DNA from: Chitinispirillum alkaliphilum
Lineage (GTDB): Bacteria > Fibrobacterota > Chitinivibrionia > Chitinivibrionales > Chitinispirillaceae
Direction of reading: 5' to 3'
NCBI GenBank assembly: GCA_001045525.1
Contig: LDWW01000001.1
Location: 310,001 to 374,000 of the forward strand
DNA: 64,000 nucleotides
In this document: piece by piece, positions 18,628-23,226 of the stretch
How the letters are laid out: each line of letters begins with the position of its first letter
Position numbering within the stretch: the first letter of the stretch is position 1
Translations under genes and position numbers: made by a program
Notes under the pieces: model-generated
The model's database searches: none
Seen by the model: only the letters and a program-made list of their open reading frames with translations
What the model was told of the DNA's origin: nothing

Positions 18628-18822
18628 AATTTTACCCCCGTTAACCAGTGATGAAGAGATATTAAGTTGTGTCTTTGTGCTCACCTGTAACAAAAACCGT
18701 GCCAGCCCAAAAAGCTCGTTTTCAGGCTGTTTTTTCTCTATTTGGAACAGTTTTTGCCTCTTGTTTTCTCCGAATCGAGAAAAGTAGAAAAAAATTATCA
18801 AAATCCGGAGCAGGAGGGGAAA

Positions 18823-19347
18823 ATGGCAACCATCGCAGTGCTTGTTGATAATCTCTTTGAGGATGTGGAGTATGATGCTCCTGTGGAGGCTTTTAAAAAC
18901 CGGGGGCATAAGGTTGTGGTGCTTGGACTTAAGAAGGGGGCTCTTCTCAGGGGAAAAAAGGGGGAAAAGGAGGTAAGGGTTGACATGGAGGTCGGCTCGG
19001 CTGATCCTAACTCTTTCGATGCACTTTTTGTTCCCGGGGGGTATTCTCCCGATCGGCTCAGGGCACATAATGAGCCTGTTATTTTCACCCGGGCCTTCTT
19101 TGATACCTCCAAACCGATTTTCCTCATCTGTCATGCGCCTCAGCTCCTCATCTCAGCCCGGCTGCTTGGGGGCAGGAAGATAACGGGGTGGAAATCAATA
19201 AAGCAGGATATTAAAAATGCGGGAGCGGAGTTTATCGACTCCCCCGTTGTGGTTGATGAAAACCTCATCTCTTCAAGGGGGCCGGCAGATATGTCACGTT
19301 TCATAGAGACAACGCTGGAAATGCTGGATAAACAGGACATAGGGTAA
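18823..19347 (+). CDS. DJ-1/PfpI family protein
   Basis: The start is ATG 18823 with GGAGGGG upstream; 174 residues, typical of the family. Seen: FEDVEYDAP near residue 12-20 with the conserved acidic residue, FVPGGYSPD near 69, and the nucleophile elbow ICHAPQLL with C103-H104. Members act as glyoxalases, chaperones or proteases in stress; which one applies here is unknown. It leads an operon with the encapsulated ferritin (55 bp gap) and encapsulin, so a role in oxidative stress is plausible. Confidence 0.92.
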   Translation: MATIAVLVDNLFEDVEYDAPVEAFKNRGHKVVVLGLKKGALLRGKKGEKEVRVDMEVGSADPNSFDALFVPGGYSPDRLRAHNEPVIFTRAFFDTSKPIFLICHAPQLLISARLLGGRKITGWKSIKQDIKNAGAEFIDSPVVVDENLISSRGPADMSRFIETTLEMLDKQDIG

Positions 19348-19402
19348 GCTTTTTCTAATTAAATACAACTTTTCCGTGCTAAACCAAATAGAGGAGGATT
19401 TG

Positions 19403-19759
19403 ATGGCTGAATTTGTTAATCCCTTTTCAGGTGTGGTACCAGGGCGAAAACTCACAGACAGAGAACTTGCAAGGGCATTGCGTCTTTCACTCACTGCCGA
19501 ACAGGAAGCGATTCACCTCTATGAGGCTTTGGCTGATGCGACCGATAACAAACTTGCCGCTGTTGTTCTTCAGGATATTGCTGATGAGGAGCGGGTCCAT
19601 GCCGGAGAGTTTCAGCGTCTTCTGGAGTTGTTGTTAAGCGACGAAAAGGAGCTTATGGAGAAGGGAAGTGAGGAGGTAGAGGAGATGCGCCAGGAGGTGC
19701 AGGGTAGTGGAACCTCAGAGGGGGGGAAGATCAAAACTGTTGGTAATCTGAAAAAATAA
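19403..19759 (+). CDS. Encapsulated ferritin-like protein (encapsulin cargo)
   Basis: The start is ATG 19403 behind GAGGAGG; 118 residues. It is a two-helix ferritin-like subunit with two ExxH patterns (E35/H38 in TAEQEAIHLYE and E63/H66 in DEERVHAGEF), the ferroxidase ligands known from encapsulated ferritin (EncFtn), which oxidises Fe2+ inside an encapsulin shell. The C-terminal tail, after an acidic linker, ends in KTVGNLKK, resembling known encapsulin targeting peptides such as TVGSL-type motifs. The shell gene begins 11 bp later. Confidence 0.93.
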   Translation: MAEFVNPFSGVVPGRKLTDRELARALRLSLTAEQEAIHLYEALADATDNKLAAVVLQDIADEERVHAGEFQRLLELLLSDEKELMEKGSEEVEEMRQEVQGSGTSEGGKIKTVGNLKK

Positions 19760-19770
19760 GGGGGAGATTT

Positions 19771-20586
19771 ATGGGTGAATATCTAAACAGAGATGACGCT
19801 CCTTTTGGGGATGAGGTTTGGGACACAATCGACAAAACTGTTGTATCCGTTGCCTCCAATGCTATGGCGGGAAGAAAATTGCTCAATGTAGAGGGGCCCT
19901 ATGGGCTGGGGATGAAAAGTGTTTCTTTAAGGGATGAGCTGATAGAGGGGGATGAGGACGAGTTATCGGTATGGAGTTCCCGGTCAATTCCCCTCGCTAT
20001 GATTTCCAGCAGCTTTAAAATCGATGGCAGGGATTTGGGGCACTATACCCGGGATGGTGTTTTGTTTGATATGAGAGAGGTGGTTTCAAGTACCCTGGAG
20101 TGTGCGAGGAAAGAGGATGAGCTTATTTTCAAGGGCTCAGAAGCGCTTGGGGTAAAGGGGTTGATGAACACACCGGGTGCATTGAGTTCGGAGCTGAAAC
20201 CATGGAGAAACATCGGGGATCCGGCTGAATCTATTGCCCTGGCTGTGGAGAAACTTGACAAGGCTGGCTTTCAGGGACCCTATAGCATGGCACTGGCTCC
20301 CTCTCTCTACAATCGTCTCTTCAGACGTTACCCGGGTGAGGAGGTGCTTGAAATAGAACATCTGAGTGCATTGGTGAGTGATGGGATTTTCAAGAGTTCT
20401 GTATTGAGTGAAGGGGGGGTATTGGTTGCTTCCGGAGCGATGTATGGTTCTGTTGTTCTTGGTCAGGATCTCCTTACTGCCTTTGAAGGACCTTCCGGCA
20501 GAAGTTATGTATTTGTGCTTTCGGAATCTGTCGCTTTGAGGGTTAATGTGCCTCAGGCCATATGTGCATTGAAGCCTGCCGGATAA
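19771..20586 (+). CDS. Encapsulin nanocompartment shell protein (family 1)
   Basis: This 271-residue protein is the HK97-fold shell protein once called linocin M18. Seen: MGEYLNRDDAPFGDEVWDTID at the start, the VEGPYGLGMKSVSL stretch, EDELIFKGSEALGVKGLMN, and the conserved end FVLSESVALRVNVPQAICAL. It assembles into a closed protein cage; the upstream ferritin is its expected cargo, so the pair would store iron and limit oxidative damage. The start ATG 19771 follows GGGGGAG. Confidence 0.96.
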   Translation: MGEYLNRDDAPFGDEVWDTIDKTVVSVASNAMAGRKLLNVEGPYGLGMKSVSLRDELIEGDEDELSVWSSRSIPLAMISSSFKIDGRDLGHYTRDGVLFDMREVVSSTLECARKEDELIFKGSEALGVKGLMNTPGALSSELKPWRNIGDPAESIALAVEKLDKAGFQGPYSMALAPSLYNRLFRRYPGEEVLEIEHLSALVSDGIFKSSVLSEGGVLVASGAMYGSVVLGQDLLTAFEGPSGRSYVFVLSESVALRVNVPQAICALKPAG

Positions 20587-20951: not shown

Positions 20952-22409
20952 ATGAACATTGGGGACTACTATAGCAGCACACATGTCCGTCGCAGGATGA
21001 AGGAATTTCTGGGGGGGGGTGAGAGTGGGGAGTTCACCGCCCGTTTCATAACCAGGTGTGATTCTCTCAGGCATGGCAAGGCACTGGGGCCGAAGATGCC
21101 CGGGGAGCTTGAGGATTTTCTCTCTCTGGGTTTGGATGTAAGTCGTTCTCTTTGGGACAGTGAGTCACTTTTGGTGCATCTGGATATAGAGTATGTAAAT
21201 TTTGACTTTCCCGCAGAGCCTTATCTTGATCCAGACCGAAGTTTTCACCTGCAAAGACCTTCAGAAAATGCCACCGAGAAGTTTCTCCTACCCTACGGCA
21301 TATCCCCTCTTCATCTGCTGAGTGGCAGGGGACATCACTTTGCCTGGCGTATTGAGAGGGGGTCTGCAGCTTACCGTCAGCTCTGTGAGATAGGGCATTT
21401 GCCCCTCCATCTTGAGAAACGTTACCAGGCGTTGTCAGAAGATCCTCTGCTTGGGGGTATTGACAGCGAATTGGGGGGGGCATATTGTGGTCTGGGTTTG
21501 GTTATGGAGTACATTGCCTGTGGTATAAGTGACCGGGCAAACCCTCAAACCTCAATCCCCGTTGAACTCACAGCGGTGGAAGTCCCTCCTCAGCAGAGGG
21601 GGCGGGAGGTTGTCTCCATAGACATCTCAGAGTACGGAGATCAGCTCAACACAAGAGCTGTGCGAATGCCTTTCAGTTTGTATCTCAAACCGTGGTGTCG
21701 CCAGGGTATAATGAGTGATGAGATACGGGGGAGAATACCTCTGATGGTCTCGGTGCCGCTTGTGGGGATGAGTTGTACAGAGGGGATATGGGTAATGAGG
21801 GATCTTGAGAAGGCTTCAGAGCTAGCGTGTGAAGTTTCGATGTATATCCCCGATTTCTCAGATCATATGCTAAAGCTTATCGGTGACTATATATCCAGTG
21901 AAACTGCGCAGTTTCACAGCTGGTATTACTCCCAGGAGCAGATCGAATCAGACCGGTGGAATTCAACTTACGATACCTTACCCTTTGATATCCTTCCTCC
22001 CTGTGCTGCGCATATTCTCCAATACCCCAACGACCTTCTTCTCAGACCCAGTGGCATTCAGTTGGTTGTCCGGGTGTTACTCTCTTTGGGGTGGCATCCA
22101 AGACAGATTGCGGGATTGATCCGTTCGAAATATGAGCGCAATTACGGGTGGGGCAATGAGTGGTATTATTATGATGCCGCTACACGGGCAGACTTTTATA
22201 CCCGACTCTTTTCCGGTCAGGTTGTGAGCAGGAGGGATAATCTGAAACTCTTTACGTGCAAATCTGTGAAGGATTGCCGGTATTGTTTTTCTCAAAACAG
22301 TAACTGTGATCTGTGTGACTACAGAAAATCTCTTTTAGAAAGGGTTAAACATGAGCGATTGGCCAGTAGGCCTGTCAACAGGTTGTTTTTACCGAATGAG
22401 CATTTTTGA
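20952..22409 (+). CDS. Archaeal/eukaryotic-type primase (AEP): PriS-like catalytic part with PriL-like cysteine domain
   Basis: I chose ATG 20952; its N-terminus (DYYSSTHVRRRMKEFL, then EFTARFITRC) resembles that of PriS. The 485-residue chain shows the three AEP motifs: acidic pair D78/E80 in LLVHLDIEY; SGRGHH at 124-129, the counterpart of SGRRGVH; and D224 in VSIDISEYG, followed by RAVRMPFSLYLKP, the counterpart of the PriS motif around R-x-PFSLH-K-T. The last 150 residues resemble the iron-sulfur domain of PriL: LPPC with C351, a helical stretch ending NYGWG, then C436, C442, C445, C452 and C455. AEPs make primers or act as PrimPol-type polymerases; bacteria normally use DnaG, so this is an extra enzyme for repair, bypass or defence. 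No helicase or nuclease gene is next to it. A GTG/TTG-type earlier start (20913) is possible. The AEP call rests on motifs only. Confidence 0.8.
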   Translation: MNIGDYYSSTHVRRRMKEFLGGGESGEFTARFITRCDSLRHGKALGPKMPGELEDFLSLGLDVSRSLWDSESLLVHLDIEYVNFDFPAEPYLDPDRSFHLQRPSENATEKFLLPYGISPLHLLSGRGHHFAWRIERGSAAYRQLCEIGHLPLHLEKRYQALSEDPLLGGIDSELGGAYCGLGLVMEYIACGISDRANPQTSIPVELTAVEVPPQQRGREVVSIDISEYGDQLNTRAVRMPFSLYLKPWCRQGIMSDEIRGRIPLMVSVPLVGMSCTEGIWVMRDLEKASELACEVSMYIPDFSDHMLKLIGDYISSETAQFHSWYYSQEQIESDRWNSTYDTLPFDILPPCAAHILQYPNDLLLRPSGIQLVVRVLLSLGWHPRQIAGLIRSKYERNYGWGNEWYYYDAATRADFYTRLFSGQVVSRRDNLKLFTCKSVKDCRYCFSQNSNCDLCDYRKSLLERVKHERLASRPVNRLFLPNEHF

Positions 22410-23226
22410 TTGTCTCGAGATGATCAGAAGTGCCGGATTCAGGATGGTGGAAGTTTGTTCCTCTCCAATGCATCTTGATTACCACGACATAGAGGCTGTA
22501 CGAAGGGCTTCTCAGAGGATGAATGAACTTGGTATGGAGCCCTATTCCTTCCACGCCCCTTTTGTAGATGTGGATATCTCCTCTCTTGACAGCAGAGTAA
22601 GGGAGGTTTCACAGCGTGAGATATTGGTTGCGGCTGAGGCTGCGGCTGTTTTTGGAGTCAGGCATTTTGTGATTCACCCCGGTCCCGATGTCTCATTGAC
22701 ATTTTCCGTTGAGGAGAAATACCAGAGGCTCAAAAACGCCTCCGCTGTTCTTGATAATGTAGCACGCAGATGCCAGCAGTTAGGGGTCGGGCTGGTGCTT
22801 GAAAATATGCTGCCGCACCTTCCCTTTGGCAGTCCAAGTGACATGATGTGGATTTTGGGAGAAATGGAAAACCTCAATATCTGTATTTGTCTGGACACCG
22901 GACATGCTGCTTTGTCTGGAGATATCTACAACATTATGTACAAACTGACCGGCCATCTTAGAATTATCCATGCTAATGATAACGGGGGAGCGGGTGATGA
23001 CCATCTTCCACCAGGAAAAGGTGTTATCGATTGGAAAAAAGTGCTCTACGAACTGGGTGAAACAGAATTCCATGGGGGAATGATACTGGAGTTATCCGGG
23101 GCGGATACTGATCCTTATGAAACCCTTGAAAAAGCAAGGCAGGCAAGCTTATACATAAGAAAAATATGCAAGGAAATGTACTTGTCCAGACCACCCTCGG
23201 TCGAAGTACCCAATGTAAATGAGTGA
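22351..23226 (+). CDS. Sugar phosphate isomerase/epimerase-like TIM-barrel protein
   Basis: This 291-residue protein is of the xylose isomerase-like/AP endonuclease family 2 TIM barrel. Seen: VGLSTGCFY at strand 1, FHAPFVDVD, FVIHPGPD, LVLENMLPH, CLDTGHA, IIHANDN and MILELSG, which supply the metal-binding H/E/D residues at the strand ends. It could be a sugar isomerase, an epimerase or, less likely, an endonuclease IV relative. The start ATG 22351 lies 59 bp inside the primase gene; the first conserved strand begins at residue 6, so a later start is unlikely. Confidence 0.88.
   Translation: MSDWPVGLSTGCFYRMSIFDCLEMIRSAGFRMVEVCSSPMHLDYHDIEAVRRASQRMNELGMEPYSFHAPFVDVDISSLDSRVREVSQREILVAAEAAAVFGVRHFVIHPGPDVSLTFSVEEKYQRLKNASAVLDNVARRCQQLGVGLVLENMLPHLPFGSPSDMMWILGEMENLNICICLDTGHAALSGDIYNIMYKLTGHLRIIHANDNGGAGDDHLPPGKGVIDWKKVLYELGETEFHGGMILELSGADTDPYETLEKARQASLYIRKICKEMYLSRPPSVEVPNVNE

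Follow-up and report, generated by a model that had tools for sequence, protein, structure and literature searches.

A chromosomal bacterial primase-polymerase with a probable PriL-like cysteine domain and a fixed, endonuclease-IV-like TIM-barrel partner

A published survey of archaeal/eukaryotic-type primases (AEPs) indicated that PriL occurs almost only with replicative primases and that PriCT-type relatives occur only on mobile elements (PMC5862659); in the PrimPol-PV1 group, nearly every bacterial AEP is encoded on a mobile element (PMC5862659). PolpTN2 of the Thermococcus plasmid pTN2 joins a PriS-like part and a PriL-like four-cysteine region in one chain (PMC3973330). Prim-PolC binds and fills short gaps and cooperates with enzymes of base-excision repair (PMC5663958). 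In this study, we analyzed a stretch of 64,000 nucleotides from Chitinispirillum alkaliphilum (contig LDWW01000001.1, positions 310,001 to 374,000; called the window), in which an AEP gene of the primase-polymerase (Prim-Pol) type at 20952-22409 on the + strand is overlapped by a gene for a TIM-barrel protein. We read the two genes as a chromosomal excision- or gap-repair pair, a Prim-Pol with an apurinic/apyrimidinic (AP)-endonuclease-like partner that would act at times of stress and would not be a replicative primase. The probability of this reading was put at about 0.52.

Translation of the open reading frame (ORF) yielded 485 residues and all of the motifs that the original prediction, made from the letters of the window, had named: DIE at 78-80, SGRGHH at 124-129, D224, and RMPFSLYLKP from 238. 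An upstream TTG would lengthen the ORF to 20913, but the start seen in homologues corresponds to the ATG at 20952. Conservation was counted in an alignment of 59 homologues. D78, E80, E186, D224, R235, P240, Y244, and K246 were invariant, and H129 was kept in 58 of the 59, demonstrating that the motifs are not due to chance. The PriS-like start proposed earlier (YY...EFLGG) was conserved among the homologues as well. The comparison with the closest orthologue gave a nonsynonymous divergence (dN) of 0.32 with saturated synonymous divergence (dS), indicating purifying selection. The gene and its catalytic core comprise the following features:

20952..22409, + strand: AEP/Prim-Pol gene, 485 aa, ATG start, with the same ATG in orthologues
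20952..21836, + strand: predicted AEP catalytic domain, residues 1-295, from the AlphaFold model and VIA matches to AEPs
21183..21191, + strand: AEP motif I, D78-I-E80, with D78 and E80 in 59/59
21321..21338, + strand: AEP motif II, SGRGHH, residues 124-129, with G125 and G127 in 59/59 and H129 in 58/59
21621..21689, + strand: AEP motif III region, D224 to K246 (SIDISEYGD...RMPFSLYLK), with D224, R235, and K246 in 59/59

The AlphaFold2 model of the protein, built from the 59-sequence alignment, had a mean pLDDT of 93.1 and a pTM of 0.93. VIA-align superposed its N-terminal 300 residues on AEPs, which made up all of the leading rows (Z 16.4 down to 8). The predicted fold contains the AEP core, and the AEP identity given in the original prediction was borne out by Z values of 10-16 to AEPs. 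The best match was Prim-PolC of M. smegmatis (Z 16.4, root-mean-square deviation 3.7, 246 aligned), an enzyme whose structure 6sa0 is a complex with 2-nt gapped DNA, followed by LigD polymerase domains (Z 14.4-15.3) and a CRISPR-associated Prim-Pol (Z 12.6). The resemblance of the core to PriS, also claimed earlier, was recovered at a Z of about 12 for the yeast and Pyrococcus proteins (11.7 for P. horikoshii PriS), but Prim-PolC and LigD were closer. Foldseek alone gave weak matches, with a best E of 0.018.

The hhalign search with the core profile ranked PriS first of 258 with a low score and did not recover LigD. PF01896 (PriS) had no match to the AEP gene at E 10 in seven genomes, where its matches were LigD or noise, and PF21686 (LigD_Prim-Pol) had none at E 10, yet it recovered the LigD of the same genome. 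Neither Pfam nor NCBIfam had a family matching the protein at E 10, PADLOC and PHROG had none at E 1, and single-sequence and profile searches of the PDB sequences with the whole protein and its two halves yielded no related chain. Model and alignment together identify the core as an AEP whose active site is intact; its predicted fold comes closest to the repair Prim-Pols of bacteria, and its sequence falls outside the modelled families tried.

Compared with Prim-PolC and LigD, the locus shares the AEP fold (with the best Z), a chromosomal home, and genomes that encode base-excision repair and, in many cases, end joining. It differs in that the AEP is missed by PF21686, carries an extra PriL-like cysteine domain, and has as its partner a TIM barrel of endonuclease-IV-like type in place of an ATP-dependent ligase. 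Compared with PriS-PriL, it has all of the AEP motifs, an SGRG-H motif II (SGRGYH at that position in the archaeal PriS of Methanosphaera), the PriS-like start, and last three cysteines near the archaeal PriL spacing. However, it is one chain without the PriL N-terminal domain, it falls below the cut-offs of PF01896 and PF04104, and DnaG is present in the genome.

The C-terminal region showed the following features:

21837..22361, + strand: probable helical domain like the PriL C-terminal domain (PriL-CTD), residues 296-470, with a sub-threshold PF04104 match and an all-helical model
22002..22004, + strand: C351 (in LPPC), first conserved cysteine, in 47/59 and co-lost with the other three
22257..22307, + strand: C436, C445, and C452, second to fourth conserved cysteines, with about four co-losses on the tree

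Residues 296-470 were helical with high confidence in the AlphaFold2 model. LPPC at 348-351 is followed by C436, C442, C445, C452, and C455, the late cluster of five that had been described before. All five are present, but C442 and C455 are not conserved, and the conserved set consists of C351, C436, C445, and C452 (C-x84-C-x8-C-x6-C). The archaeal PriL sequences compared (PDB 9f26 of Pyrococcus and a Methanosphaera plasmid PriL) have FPPC and then C-x10-C-x5-C, against LPPC and then C-x8-C-x6-C here. As a separate observation, the archaeal Methanosphaera plasmid NZ_CP118754.1 (174 kb, L114) carries its own overlapping priL-priS pair. The entire four-cysteine set was missing from 12 of the 59 homologues, with the rest of the tail kept (L033, L034, L038, L039, L043, L045-L048, L056, L060, and L065). 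On a tree built without the cysteine columns, the presence of the set changed at least four times, and two of the changes were forced by well supported branches. A shared metal site would be expected to disappear in this all-or-none way.

PF04104 (PriL) scored 12.4 bits on the tail against a gathering score of 22.4. In six-frame searches, the tail was its best genome-wide match in three of five AEP-carrying genomes (E 0.047-0.585), and in a tail-only scan, PF04104 was the family matched by most members (4/46), with a best E of 0.0011 and a consistent register. When the tail was compared with archaeal PriL by hhalign, only the LPPC region was aligned; among 258 proteins, PolpTN2 ranked 3 and two PriLs ranked 8 and 9, with unrelated proteins above them. 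PriL was not among the VIA matches listed for the AEP model, which does not count against PriL homology. The proposed PriL resemblance thus gained from the archaeal-like cysteine spacing, the co-loss, and the best PF04104 matches in three genomes. Because PF04104 stayed below its cut-off and hhalign supported only the LPPC region, we grade homology of the tail to PriL-CTD as probable and not as proven. The PriL-CTD of yeast binds a [4Fe-4S] cluster through four cysteines, and in archaeal PriL only a short linker bearing the last two ligands is retained (PMC2852410). In most lineages the tail described here carries a four-cysteine site, which is probably of the [4Fe-4S] type.

The joining of PriS-like and PriL-like parts had been called noteworthy, but the fusion in the archaeal plasmid enzyme PolpTN2 (L092:10248-12998), likewise one chain with a PriL-like four-cysteine region, was already known (PMC3973330). 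PolpTN2 is plasmid-borne, is 923 aa long, has extra PriCT-1 and winged-helix domains, and has lost the motif II histidine (PMC5862659, PMC3973330). The AEP described here differs from PolpTN2 and PrimPol-PV1 in keeping H129 and in being chromosomal.

The TIM-barrel gene overlaps the AEP gene, as had been noted; the overlap is 59 nt, and the TIM gene is conserved:

22351..23226, + strand: TIM-barrel partner, putatively of endonuclease-IV type, 291 aa, PF01261 at 2.5e-34
22351..22409, + strand: reading-frame overlap of the AEP and TIM genes, 59 nt, with overlap or near contact recurring in nearly all loci

The survey of neighbours proposed earlier identified this gene as the informative one: a TIM homologue lies directly downstream of the AEP in 78 of the 79 loci where the contig continues. 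The overlap in other loci is usually 4, 8, or 59 nt, and L018 has only a broken TIM copy. Among 61 related genomes, the 10 that encode the AEP are precisely those with a member of the TIM subfamily, and in L059 (2486-4759) the two are fused into one 758-aa reading frame; this co-occurrence and the fusion imply joint action of the AEP and the TIM protein. The TIM model had a pLDDT of 94.7. H68, H109, E151, D182, H185, H207, D216, H218, and E247 were invariant in 48 of 48 subfamily members and aligned one to one with residues of M. tuberculosis endonuclease IV (5zhz) that we take to be the metal ligands of its trinuclear site. A sugar epimerase in the same alignment lacked residues matching H68, H109, D216, and H218. 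The nine invariant ligands, four of them absent from the epimerase, favour a predicted phosphodiesterase of the endonuclease-IV type. The protein shares the TIM barrel and the nine aligned ligands with endonuclease IV (Nfo), but it forms a separate subfamily, known here by sequence and model, and the NCBIfam nfo model TIGR00587 scored 26.5 bits against 129.65. It belongs to the same superfamily as CbiR and the MJ1311-like TIM barrels. Since the nfo and CbiR models both fell below their cut-offs, membership in either family is not claimed.

The same genome encodes DnaG (E 6.5e-37) and has a separate LigD/Ku locus. The AEP is therefore not the cell's replicative primase, nor is it the polymerase for end joining, and the view that its chain unites the two halves of the archaeal replicative primase was not supported, since DnaG is present, the closest folds are repair Prim-Pols, and the PolpTN2 fusion was already known. 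The AEP gene is also absent from most relatives. Within the family of the window's genome, Ku was detected in seven of seven AEP-positive genomes and in one of 17 AEP-negative genomes (Fisher 2e-5, uncorrected for kinship). In a Desulfobacteraceae bin (L019:2996-7093), two Ku genes lie divergently upstream of the AEP, and a uracil-DNA glycosylase gene (PF03167 2.3e-9) stands in place of the TIM gene; the search of that genome yielded no TIM homologue. Other repair genes occurred sporadically near the AEP, namely Nfo (L021), Fpg (L027 and L032), NAD ligase (L032 and L056), and helix-hairpin-helix (HhH) proteins, and the top Pfam families among 128 close neighbours were UspA (7) and Hsp20 (6). 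These neighbours, like L019 and the distribution of Ku within the family, speak for the repair reading.

The DNA-repair function of the pair is what we infer from these data, and its substrate, order of steps, and timing would be as follows. The AEP gene would be translationally coupled to the gene of the endonuclease-IV-type metallo-phosphodiesterase. In stressed or non-dividing cells, the TIM enzyme would cut an abasic site or trim a blocked 3' end, and the Prim-Pol would fill the short gap with ribonucleoside or deoxyribonucleoside triphosphates (rNTPs or dNTPs) while its C-terminal domain holds the template or the 5' side. A housekeeping ligase would then seal the filled gap. The gap-filling step is proposed because of the analogy with Prim-PolC.

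Several observations weigh against such a repair pair. The repair genes near the AEP were sporadic. At the order level, three genomes (G027, G033, and G036) have the AEP without Ku, indicating that the AEP is independent of Ku. UspA was also common 4.5-8 kb away, where 25 families were listed for 126 distant neighbours and Hsp20 was not listed, so UspA marks a stress island and not the AEP gene alone. The closest structures and the best NCBIfam match of the TIM protein point elsewhere, as set out below, and a PriL-like domain would be no less suited to starting primers de novo than to filling gaps.

De novo priming underlies the main rival within repair, in which a PrimPol-like enzyme would reprime single-stranded DNA past lesions or stalled forks by means of its PriL-like domain, and the partner would remove blocked or misplaced primer ends. 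Retention of the C-terminal domain in all lineages, even the cysteine-less ones, is consistent with repriming, as is the priming of DNA by PolpTN2, itself a PriS-PriL-like fusion (PMC3973330). However, the closest folds are gap-filling Prim-Pols, and the fixed partner is of an endonuclease-IV type typical of excision repair, not a helicase or single-stranded-DNA-binding protein. We consider repriming unlikely, although it deserves to be kept in view.

A different function for the TIM protein was suggested by its neighbours in structure. MJ1311 (3wqo) was its best match in both structure and sequence (Z 33.2), followed by D-tagatose epimerases at about 29-30, and its best NCBIfam match was CbiR (NF041277, 1.2e-12, 47.9 against 105 bits). 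It could accordingly be a small-molecule enzyme, a sugar isomerase or a CbiR-like cofactor phosphodiesterase, with the AEP co-opted to synthesize or alter a nucleotide product instead of repairing DNA. The invariance of the nine endonuclease-IV ligands, four of which the aligned epimerase lacks, argues against this explanation. Neighbouring genes included uracil-DNA glycosylase, Ku, Nfo, and Fpg, not sugar or cobamide operons, and no cobamide family was among the 25 commonest neighbour families. A small-molecule role was judged quite improbable. Separately, 3wqo and 3ayt (TTHB071), although recorded as epimerase-like or of uncharacterised function, show an endonuclease-IV-type ligand pattern in the alignments, and the functions of MJ1311 and TTHB071 may deserve a second look.

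Of 168 genomes in the phylum, 10 carry the AEP gene; it was also detected in 80 loci of named genomes that, going by their record titles, belong to about nine phyla (Fibrobacterota, Verrucomicrobiota, Planctomycetota, Desulfobacterota/Thermodesulfobacteriota, Myxococcota ["Deltaproteobacteria"], Omnitrophota, Acidobacteriota, Gemmatimonadota, and Hydrogenedentota). Most loci are metagenome bins whose names may be wrong; L028 is from the isolate Verrucomicrobium sp. BvORR106. The patchy distribution, together with AEPs known from some CRISPR contexts (PMC8211822), would fit an anti-phage defence module using an AEP and a nuclease. The AEP matched no PADLOC family, however, the TIM match was trivial (0.0038), and the 128 close neighbours included only a few defence genes, with the pair standing amid stress and housekeeping genes; a defence role is thus very improbable.

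No AEP relative was found in the viral contigs, phage records, or plasmid records searched, and the AEP model gave only weak matches among predicted viral structures, several of them phage primases. The AEP/TIM pair is chromosomal, with neither a phage nor a plasmid home. Mobile elements carry most of the bacterial AEPs that have PriCT or PriL-like domains (PMC5862659), and by that precedent the AEP might prime the replication of such an element or be what is left of a primase that did. The lack of relatives in the records above and of a helicase partner argues against this origin, as does the persistence of the pair while its neighbours vary freely between genomes, and we give it the least credence of the explanations considered.

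Upstream of the AEP gene, at 18742-20586, the window contains a DJ-1/PfpI gene, a gene for an EncB-family ferritin-like cargo protein (NF058679 2.7e-30), and a gene for a Family 1 encapsulin shell (NF041155 1.2e-66), which form a small oxidative/iron stress group. The encapsulin context reported earlier is real as to the genes and incidental as to the AEP: of the 80 other loci, L012 alone has encapsulin and cargo again (L012:2789-3975), separated from the AEP by about 4 kb, and a link between them and the AEP was rejected.

In the open-access literature, no description was found of a chromosomal bacterial AEP of such architecture or of its TIM partner. The combination of a PriL-like cysteine domain and a fixed endonuclease-IV-type partner, in a bacterial AEP encoded on the chromosome, is an exception to the rule of the survey (PMC5862659). 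Tentatively, and at somewhat less than even odds, we propose an undescribed chromosomal two-protein repair system in about nine phyla, in which an iron-sulfur (Fe-S), PriL-like AEP would prime or fill at breaks made by its obligate partner, and a repeatedly lost cluster would tune its activity under oxidative stress. The cysteine-bearing and cysteine-less one-chain enzymes are a natural set for the long-debated role of Fe-S clusters in primases. The system would add a repair route to lineages in which DNA repair has received little study (Verrucomicrobiota, Planctomycetota, and Fibrobacterota).
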